Shown piece by piece: positions 33,829 through 46,693 of a stretch of DNA of 64,000 bases. Numbering within the stretch: position 1 is the stretch's first letter; each line of letters begins with the position of its first letter. A model generated the notes under the pieces. It was given only the letters and a program-made list of their open reading frames with translations. It had not been told where the DNA came from and searched no databases. The position numbers and the translations under genes were made by a program. Origin of the DNA: Paenibacillus sp. FSL R7-0273 (GTDB taxonomy: Bacteria; Bacillota; Bacilli; Paenibacillales; Paenibacillaceae); contig NZ_CP009283.1 of NCBI RefSeq assembly GCF_000758625.1, forward strand, positions 3,173,501 through 3,237,500, in the 5' to 3' direction.

Positions 33829-33858
33829 AAAAAAGTGTCCTCCAGGGGGCACTTTTTT
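33829..33858 (+). terminator. Terminator after SDR gene
   Basis: AAAAAAGTGTCC and GGGGCACTTTTTT form an A/T-flanked stem ending in a T-run. Confidence 0.85.
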
Positions 33859-33929
33859 ATATTTGGGTTTATACGGGAACGCCGCTTTTGGATAGTTATT
33901 CCTTAAAAAAGAAGGGGATTGCGGTTTCA

Positions 33930-33936
33930 TGTCGAA
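33930..33936 (+). promoter_or_regulatory. Spo0A-box-like heptamer
   Basis: TGTCGAA matches the Spo0A box core and lies about 50 bases before the c-di-GMP riboswitch, in the expected promoter zone. A heptamer occurs by chance several times in 64 kb, so the evidence is weak; an identical one precedes the second SDR unit. Confidence 0.25.
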
Positions 33937-33984
33937 TTATAAATAAAAGCTAGACACTAAATACCAAATATGTTTGTAATTCTG

Positions 33985-34087
33985 AGGCGCCAGCTGATGA
34001 ACAAAGGCAACTCCGCCGAAAGGCGGAAGACGCAAAGCCACCGGTCTAAACCGCTGTTACAGCGGCATGATAGCGGGGACGCTCATA
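33985..34087 (+). promoter_or_regulatory. Cyclic-di-GMP-I (GEMM) riboswitch
   Basis: The sequence carries the hallmarks of the class: AAAGGCAA at 34003-34010, a TCCGCC-GAAA-GGCGGA tetraloop hairpin at 34012-34027, the highly conserved GACGCAAAGCC at 34029-34039 followed by ACCGGTCTAA, a second hairpin CCGCTG-TTA-CAGCGG at 34051-34065 and ATGATAGCGGGGAC to close the outer helix. The ligand-contacting G before GCAA is a G, as in c-di-GMP rather than cGAMP binders. A T-rich run follows at 34094-34102. It heads the STAS-like and KASIII-like genes. Confidence 0.85.
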
Positions 34088-34197
34088 TAGTTTGGTTTTT
34101 TTGCTGTCTAAATAGGCCAAGGGAGAGTTGCGGACATGTAATACATAAAACGGACTGCTCAAAAAAATCAAACCAACAGAATTGGAGTTGTACTTAT

Positions 34198-34557
34198 ATG
34201 ATCGCAGAAACTACGATGCACCCGGAATTCAACACTATTTTTATCAGCCTGCACGGCTTTGCCGAAGTAACGGAGACCATTAAAGAGGTGGATATTTTTG
34301 AAGCCCAAATGCCCCATCTGCCGCTTAAAGAGATGTCGCTGATTATTGACTGCTCGGATATGGCGCCTTTCAAGCCGGAAATCCTGCCGGTGCTGGAACG
34401 CTGCTACGTGTTGTATAACAGCTTTAAGCATGCCGTACTGGTTAACCCGGTCAAGGTGGTGGCGAAATCACAATTACAGCGTGTGGCGCCGAAAGCCGGA
34501 TTTGAAGGGAAGTTTGTTGATACAGTAGATGAAGCATGGGCTATTGTAAAAGTTTAG
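34198..34557 (+). CDS. Small STAS/SpoIIAA-like protein
   Basis: This 119-residue cytosolic protein has alternating beta and alpha segments of the SpoIIAA-like/STAS type (SLIIDCSDMAPFKPEILPVLE then HAVLVNPVKVVAKSQLQ). No phosphorylatable Ser-Gly motif of anti-anti-sigma factors is clear, so it may be a lipid- or ligand-binding relative. GGAGTTG precedes the ATG at 34198 by ten bases; the in-frame stretch before it is the riboswitch leader. It is 36 bases from the KASIII-like gene and both fall under the c-di-GMP switch. A relative of the same length and topology lies at 55814. Confidence 0.75.
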   Translation: MIAETTMHPEFNTIFISLHGFAEVTETIKEVDIFEAQMPHLPLKEMSLIIDCSDMAPFKPEILPVLERCYVLYNSFKHAVLVNPVKVVAKSQLQRVAPKAGFEGKFVDTVDEAWAIVKV

Positions 34558-34593
34558 CCAAAAGCACAAATACACTAACAAAGGTGGGCCGTT

Positions 34594-35592
34594 ATGGTTA
34601 ACGTAAGGATTGCAGGGACTGAAGTGTACCATCCGCCATTTAAAGTTAGCAATGAACAATTGGCTGAACAGGCTGGCGAGGCTGCGGATAAGCTTATTGG
34701 TATTTGGGAGTATTTTGGCCGCAAGGATCGTTATTATGCAGCTACGAATGAAGAAAACACGCTGTACATGGCAATAGAAGCCTCTAAGGCACTGCTGCGG
34801 AGCAGCGGGCTAAGACCCGAAGACCTCGACATGATCGTCGTCTCCTCGGGCACGCATGAGTACAGTGCTCCGACTGACGCAGCGCTCCTGCACCAGGCAA
34901 TCGGCGGTAAGCATTCCTGCATCGTCTATGACAGCAATGCGAATTGTGTGGGGATGGTGGTTGCTGCCGATCAGGCGGCTCGTGCAATGATGACGAATCC
35001 GCGGGTGAGGTATGCGCTGGTTGTCGGCTCGGAGCAGATCGCCCGCTTTTATAAAGAAGGGGATTTGGCTTCAAAAGGGCTTTGCGGGGATGCGGCCTGC
35101 GCCGTTCTGCTGGAACGGGTGGAGGACGGCGAGTCCGGCCTGATTGATTCAGTGTATTATACCAATACACATAAGGCGGAAGATATGCTGTTCCCGTCCG
35201 GCGGGTTAGCCCGGATGTTCGATGACAGCCTGTCGCTGGAGGAGAAGAAGATTTATCTGCATCCGGAATATAACGTCAATGTGGCATTTCCGACTGCGGT
35301 TACCGGAATGGAGAAGCTGCTGGAAGAGCAGGGGTATGCCAAAAGCGAGGTTAAGCATTATATTCTGAGCCAGCTGAATCTGACCGTCATTAGGGAGATT
35401 GCCGGAATCCTCGGAGAGGATACCGCCAAATTCCCATACATCGGGGATATTTACGGCTATACCGGCACCAGCAGCCCGTTCATCGCCCTGCATCATGCCA
35501 GGAAGAACGGCACCATTGTACCTGGCGACTTATTCTTCTTATGGTCGGTAGGTGCGGGAATTACCAGCTGTGCTACACTATGGAGGCTATAA
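34594..35592 (+). CDS. KASIII/FabH-like protein with altered active site
   Basis: This 332-residue member of the thiolase fold resembles FabH. The acyl-accepting Cys118 is present in SNANCVGM. The FabH HQAN His aligns with Ser259 (SQLNLTV) and the Asn of YGNTS aligns with Tyr289 (YGYTGTSS), so the decarboxylating His and Asn are both missing. It cannot be expected to be a normal malonyl-condensing FabH; acyl transfer or a condensation without decarboxylation is more likely. AAGGTGGG precedes the ATG. It is the last gene of the c-di-GMP-controlled unit and is followed by a terminator. Confidence 0.87.
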   Translation: MVNVRIAGTEVYHPPFKVSNEQLAEQAGEAADKLIGIWEYFGRKDRYYAATNEENTLYMAIEASKALLRSSGLRPEDLDMIVVSSGTHEYSAPTDAALLHQAIGGKHSCIVYDSNANCVGMVVAADQAARAMMTNPRVRYALVVGSEQIARFYKEGDLASKGLCGDAACAVLLERVEDGESGLIDSVYYTNTHKAEDMLFPSGGLARMFDDSLSLEEKKIYLHPEYNVNVAFPTAVTGMEKLLEEQGYAKSEVKHYILSQLNLTVIREIAGILGEDTAKFPYIGDIYGYTGTSSPFIALHHARKNGTIVPGDLFFLWSVGAGITSCATLWRL

Positions 35593-35629
35593 CTGTACTA
35601 TAATTAGTAAAGCTAAATGTGAATAGAAA

Positions 35630-35678
35630 GGGGCTGACTCAAAAGCGGTGCAAGCTGCCCGGGGTCAGCTCCTTTTTT
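35630..35678 (+). terminator. Terminator after KASIII-like gene
   Basis: GGGGCTGACTC pairs with GGGGTCAGCTCC and is followed by TTTTTT. Confidence 0.85.
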
Positions 35679-46487: not shown

Positions 46488-46563
46488 AAATTTGAACGAA
46501 AAAGGTTGACACCATCTGACTTGCCGTGTAACATATGAAAAGTCGTCATGCTAATAACACTTA

Positions 46564-46648
46564 TATATTCTCGTATAACCCCGCAGCCGTTAAGGCATGG
46601 ATAGGGCGGGGGTTTCTACAGGAAGCCTATTCTTCCTAACTACGATGA
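46564..46648 (+). promoter_or_regulatory. Purine (guanine-class) riboswitch aptamer, variant P2 loop
   Basis: Core elements match the purine class: junction 1/2 TATAA (46574-46578), P2 arms CCCCGC (46579-46584) and GCGGGG (46606-46611), junction 2/3 GTTTCTAC (46612-46619), P3 GGAAG/CTTCC and junction 3/1 AACTA with the C that selects guanine or hypoxanthine. Loop 3 CCTATT can pair with ATAGG at the end of loop 2, as the class requires. Loop 2 is unusually long and contains its own GCC-GTTAA-GGC hairpin. P1 is weak. It precedes an EamA transporter gene. Confidence 0.72.
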
Positions 46649-46693
46649 TAAAGACCCGCCTAAGCGGTCCTTATCCCGGAGTTAGGATTTTTT
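46634..46693 (+). terminator. Riboswitch expression platform (competing terminator)
   Basis: TCCTAACTACG (46634-46644), which is part of P3 and junction 3/1 of the aptamer, can pair at 10 of 11 positions with CGGAGTTAGGA (46677-46687), and TTTTTT follows. Aptamer and terminator therefore exclude one another, which predicts that ligand binding permits readthrough. Confidence 0.65.

Follow-up and report, generated by a model that had tools for sequence, protein, structure and literature searches.

What does a c-di-GMP riboswitch control when it stands before genes for a KASIII-like enzyme and a small STAS-like protein, and does its ligand switch them on or off? The question is raised by a locus of Paenibacillus sp. 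FSL R7-0273 (GCF_000758625.1, NZ_CP009283.1, 3,173,501-3,237,500, forward strand), of which the whole analyzed stretch of 64,000 nt is here called the window. Most genes known to follow c-di-GMP riboswitches serve motility, adhesion or the matrix. We propose that a c-di-GMP-I riboswitch, in a leader starting from a sigma-H-type promoter, would control the transcription of a two-gene acyl-enzyme module and turn it off with c-di-GMP, that the KASIII-like protein (KAS1) would transfer acyl groups with a STAS protein as its partner, and that the pathway may be split between this module and a second, ThDP enzyme-encoding operon. We put the probability of this proposal as a whole at roughly 55%.

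The RNA belongs to a known riboswitch class. An earlier note on this DNA had recognized a GEMM-I aptamer by eye and recommended a covariance search, which places a c-di-GMP-I (GEMM-I, RF01051) aptamer at 33996-34086 on the plus strand, matched end to end with 63.5 bits against a gathering score of 35. It is one of two Rfam matches in the 64-kb window; a purine riboswitch aptamer is matched at 46551-46662 with 37.4 bits, barely above the Rfam cut-off of 37. The genome as a whole carries eight c-di-GMP-I aptamers at seven places, and besides the window and the ThDP operon described below, the aptamers of the five remaining loci precede a FapA-like gene, a transglutaminase-like gene, a SinI-like ORF near tasA-like genes, a putative adhesin and a GH26/PA14 protein. 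The transglutaminase-like gene is preceded by two tandem aptamers (L067:1654-1890). At another of these loci (L068:1794-1879, or G000:C1:384293-384378) the aptamer lies just before a 50-codon ORF with a TTG start (1907-2059), which we take to be SinI-like by its motif. The locus also has an opposite-strand ORF, HTH-like to the eye, and further down a gene of tasA/camelysin type (PF12389). For Bacillus methanolicus, sinI is reported to be preceded by a c-di-GMP riboswitch (PMC4342826).

The next two ORFs after the aptamer, both on the plus strand, encode STAS1 (34198-34557), a 119-aa STAS-fold protein, and KAS1 (34594-35592), a 332-aa KASIII-like protein with the FabH fold, in agreement with the gene pair anticipated from the letters. 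We take leader, STAS1 and KAS1 as one unit because a terminator-like inverted repeat with A and T runs separates the leader from the upstream SDR gene (33829-33858; 12-nt arms, 92% complementary) and a terminator-like hairpin with a T run follows KAS1 (35653-35677, plus strand); the latter matches the consensus weakly, and sites of its kind, three in the window against 2.1 expected in shuffles, are weak evidence when taken alone. The suspicion that the FabH-like protein lacks the normal His and Asn also proved right, as KAS1 keeps the Cys (Cys118) and has Ser259 at the His position and Tyr289 at the Asn position. The same Cys, Ser and Tyr, in place of the Cys-His-Asn triad, are found in 23 of 23 and then in 121 of 121 sequences examined; the invariance of Ser and Tyr therefore defines a KASIII-like subfamily and not a broken FabH, and KAS1 scores 123.7 bits with the NCBIfam fabH model (TIGR00747), below its curated cut-off of 292.1. 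Because these two residues are invariant in place of His and Asn while the acyl-accepting Cys is kept, KAS1 probably carries out acyl transfer and not the usual decarboxylating condensation. STAS1 would be its partner, perhaps presenting ACP or substrate. STAS1 matches no Pfam family at E 0.1, the Pfam STAS family included, and a sequence search of the PDB gave a chance match only. Among its relatives, no Pfam family is matched at E 1 by STAS2 and STAS3 of the same genome or by the copy in L092, and the copy in L083 matches only CRAL_TRIO_2 (17 bits against 23) and Arg_decarbox_C, both below their cut-offs.

The STAS and KASIII genes form a conserved module. A search with a KASIII model matched 89 of the 246 genomes of the order, and in the loci retrieved for the best 30 places among these matches a STAS-like gene lies beside the KASIII gene in all 30. 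Across all fetched loci, 82 of 84 distinct KASIII genes have a STAS gene next to them (exceptions, L169 and L170). This set is biased, as STAS hits served to fetch many of the loci, and it lists L104 as KASIII-first owing to an ORF call that was too long. The order riboswitch-STAS-KASIII, which the earlier note had suggested seeking in other genomes, was found there: there are nine aptamer-bearing leaders of the window type, the window included. Several of these neighborhoods have peculiarities of their own. A 351-aa secreted-looking protein without a Pfam match is encoded between aptamer and STAS-KASIII in G056 (L074:4151-5348). Next to STAS-KASIII in two other loci (L092:7743-11761 and L090:3780-4646) lie repeated genes for small YjcZ-like proteins and for NENENE-repeat proteins, which are possibly related to the spore surface; the one YjcZ-like protein tested scored 12.9 bits with PF09680, below the cut-off of 21. 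In G087 (L073, G087:C1:3072000-3084000) the leader passes from the promoter to the post-aptamer sequence at CTAAATAC, a repeat that in L018 flanks the aptamer region on either side, and the KASIII gene beside STAS1 is missing while STAS1 is kept; this locus looks like a natural deletion.

The aptamer is attached to the module in more than one lineage. We built a maximum-likelihood tree of the 57 KASIII proteins with enough flanking DNA, in which a 95% identical ortholog (L009) stands for the window's own KASIII and the aptamer labels follow the core pattern, most rows' loci having also been scanned with Rfam. The aptamer occurs on three clades, namely the window type (5 rows), a ThDP-operon type (16 rows) and a group from another genus (L083, L084 and L086) with the order aptamer-KASIII-STAS. 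The label requires three changes on the tree, and well-supported branches force three. Either the switch was gained three times, or it was gained less often and then lost in places; we favor separate gains because promoter, gene order and terminator are not the same in the three leader types. If about 7 switch loci are assumed per 2000 transcription units, a rough figure, the chance that three of ten clades carry a switch is ~5e-6. What had been singled out as an unusual output for a c-di-GMP-I switch is thus found behind it on three clades, and this recurrence makes the finding stronger than it was first taken to be.

Many genomes of the genus have the pair at the end of a four-gene operon, in which a c-di-GMP-I aptamer is followed by genes for a ThDP enzyme, a CMD-family protein, STAS and KASIII. 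The earlier view of the pair as a whole transcription unit holds for the window, but it missed this larger conserved module with a c-di-GMP-I switch of its own. The three TPP_enzyme domains are all present in the ThDP protein, which falls below the cut-off of every NCBIfam model among the 25 of 56 matches listed. Its orthologs (at least 78% identity) are present in 58 of 100 genomes of the genus, and 55 of these 58 have a c-di-GMP-I aptamer shortly before the gene (28 found with Rfam in fetched loci, 7 among the matches listed by an Rfam genome search and 20 by the core pattern only); the gene lacks an aptamer in G075, G097 and G098. A KASIII gene lies within ~4 kb of the ThDP gene in 46 of the 58 genomes, as counted by eye, and a KASIII of the family is found somewhere in all 58, versus 12 of the 42 genomes without the ThDP gene (Fisher p 4e-16, with the relatedness of the genomes ignored). 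A different genus of the family has these four genes with no aptamer before them (L129, L130, L131 and L098).

The window's own genome has this operon in a reduced form, with c-di-GMP-I before ThDP, CMD and STAS2 and no KASIII gene (L065); it also has a third pair, STAS3-KAS3, without an aptamer (L071). KASIII-less ThDP operons are found as well in G009, G063, G077, G087 and G095, and within the window clade all six ThDP operons lack a KASIII gene of their own (L065, L087, L088, L089, L113 and L114). Given these KASIII-less operons, and since every one of the 58 ThDP genomes holds a family KASIII against 12 of 42 others, the operon appears to be split over two c-di-GMP-I loci in this genome. 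The window module would then supply the KASIII step absent from the second operon, and one messenger would gate both halves of one pathway.

Upstream of the aptamer, the window-type leaders have a promoter-like element that resembles the sigma-H consensus RNAGGAWWW/RNNGAATWW (PMC8510167). We searched for the pattern RNAGGAWWW-N11/12-RNNGAATWW. In the window, the -35-like element GAAGGGGAT (33911-33919, plus strand) has two mismatches, and the -10-like element GTCGAATTA (33931-33939, plus strand), conserved in the leader alignment, has none. Summed over both elements, the nine window-type leaders have no mismatch in five cases, one in three and two in the window, and the element always sits 84-85 nt upstream of the aptamer. 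On the 128 kb of the two window strands, the pattern has no match at zero mismatches and eight at no more than one (spacings 10-13). The sequences flanking the aptamer upstream and downstream pair with each other as a helix that meets a U-run. Its 5' strand (TAGACA...ACCAAATATGT) occupies 33951-33973 and its 3' strand 34085-34110, both on the plus strand, the latter including seven Us at 34096-34102 that we propose as the termination site. The helix lies directly before the U-run in all nine window-type leaders, with 184 of 184 alignment cells paired; two of its pairs vary by G-U, and double-sided changes number zero. Of 500 shuffles, 11 gave an equally good helix for the window and 11-15 for the five closest leaders, against 0-2 for the four more distant ones (L024, L025, L026 and L074). 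In unliganded folds of growing transcripts the helix is present up to 34120, and other pairings have taken its place by 34140.

No compact hairpin with a U-run was found within 170 nt after the window aptamer. By comparison, a hairpin with a U-rich tail follows the aptamer in all 17 leaders of the ThDP and KAS-STAS types examined (-14 to -22 kcal/mol). In a shuffle control with a coarser scan on seven of these, 0-1 of 60 shuffles were as good in six; the figure was 13 of 60 in L096, whose odd-length hairpin the coarse scan missed. The same coarse scan found no terminator after the window aptamer. Other pairings were considered and set aside. An anti-aptamer pairing of the U-run with the aptamer core, seen in a fold of the long leader, was equaled by 150 of 500 shuffles in the window and by 66-115 of 200 in eight other leaders, and was dropped; an antiterminator pairing in 14 ThDP-type and three KAS-STAS-type leaders was equaled by 12 to 254 of 300 shuffles and is not claimed. 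A 14-nt inverted repeat (34090-34103/34160-34173) is absent from aligned orthologs and was taken as chance. The window (34120-34141) and, at the corresponding position, L018-L022 have a Shine-Dalgarno-like stretch (AAGGGAGAG in the window) and after it a start codon with a stop directly behind or one codon on (ATG TAA; ATG CTG TAA), possibly a minimal upstream ORF.

With no compact terminator, and with the closing helix replaced by 34140, such a leader could switch either way. We consider it somewhat more likely that it is a transcriptional control that is off with c-di-GMP, because the closing helix before the U-run reads as a ligand-stabilized stop; c-di-GMP would most likely stabilize the aptamer and this helix at the U-run, where transcription would end. 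The opposite sense, in which the ligand lets transcription or translation through and the module is made in settled cells with high c-di-GMP, seems to us distinctly possible, though short of even odds. It would agree with the largely surface and biofilm genes at the five other annotated c-di-GMP-I loci and would gain from the two leader features just named, the helix giving way in the unliganded fold. Against it stand the U-run directly behind the helix in nine of nine leaders and the strong terminator-like hairpins 3' of the aptamer in ThDP leaders, and we found no ligand-favored antiterminator. Sigma-H is a post-exponential factor. The module would thus be expressed, somewhat more likely, at low c-di-GMP and with sigma-H, so that its sense may differ from the first reading: production when cells settle is disfavored by a leader anatomy that leans toward ligand-promoted termination and by the sigma-H-like promoter. 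A third reading, that the aptamer senses another dinucleotide such as 3',3'-cGAMP or is a relic, we regard as very improbable. The locus in G087, which retains STAS1 without aptamer and KASIII gene, would suit a relic, but the aptamer's score and conservation are high across orthologs, the genome has 28 GGDEF matches, and the first G of GGCAAC, a position that is A in cGAMP-type GEMM RNAs, is retained.

That the two loci serve one pathway is in turn something that we infer, since a search at E 1e-120 gave no ThDP match in six of the 11 genomes with a KASIII of the window type (G017, G034, G056, G076, G091 and G092); the split is a good lead and not a fact. The aptamer is retained in four of the six, and STAS-KAS1 can thus function in the absence of a ThDP partner. 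It is therefore a serious contender, at a little under even odds, that STAS-KAS1 stands alone, linked to the ThDP operon by ancestry and switch class but by nothing else, and that the two loci make different products. The promoters differ, being sigma-H-like in the window type and TTGACA/TATATT-like by eye in ThDP leaders, and STAS3-KAS3 of the same genome could serve the ThDP operon. Yet such independence fits poorly with a family KASIII in 58 of 58 ThDP genomes and with the want of an own KASIII in all six ThDP operons of the window clade. Outside that clade, six further ThDP genomes lack a nearby KASIII (G022, G038, G058, G075, G097 and G098), and hence its loss is not tied to KAS1 alone.

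We offer a larger suggestion tentatively and rate it below even odds: c-di-GMP may directly gate a dedicated pathway for a small acyl-derived molecule, built on a new Cys-Ser-Tyr class of KASIII with a STAS protein, with a switch acquired three times and a pathway divided in this species over two loci that share the switch class. The lipid or acyl signal envisaged in the earlier note is a possible output. With a recurring switch on an uncharacterized ThDP/STAS/KASIII module, c-di-GMP would directly control a pathway for a small molecule; the enzymes with the invariant Cys-Ser-Tyr site form a KASIII subfamily, and the recurrence suggests that c-di-GMP has a metabolic output still to be explored. 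Moreover, two switch-controlled loci in one genome offer a ready test for a c-di-GMP-dependent metabolite that needs both. In the open-licence literature, taken largely as titles and the starts of abstracts, we found no account of a ThDP/STAS/KASIII module under c-di-GMP-I control. Another riboswitch candidate before a STAS gene has been described, with Paenibacillus unmentioned in the available part of that source (PMC11109978).

Each component of the system has a known counterpart from which it departs. The aptamer resembles other c-di-GMP-I (GEMM-I, RF01051) RNAs in its full-length covariance match, its GAAA tetraloop and its conserved GACGCAAAGCC core, but it differs from the class in the KASIII/STAS module downstream and in the long closing helix that runs into the U-run. 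KAS1, compared with FabH, or beta-ketoacyl-ACP synthase III (TIGR00747; 6x7r), has Ser for His, Tyr for Asn and an adjacent STAS gene. STAS1 shares 8, 12 and 9% identity with SpoIIAA, RsbS and the YchM STAS domain bound to ACP (3ny7), respectively; these have a kinase or transporter as partner, whereas STAS1 has no Pfam STAS match and an enzyme as its putative partner. The ThDP protein has BbmA as its best PDB relative by sequence (BbmA/CsmA, 8x3x and 8x3z; 235.9 bits over residues 53-586 of 592), ahead of the acetolactate synthases, and it scores 274.3 bits with the acetolactate synthase equivalog TIGR00118, below the cut-off of 538.35. The likeness is one of sequence, and unlike BbmA/CsmA and the acetolactate synthases, the ThDP gene is flanked by CMD, STAS and KASIII.
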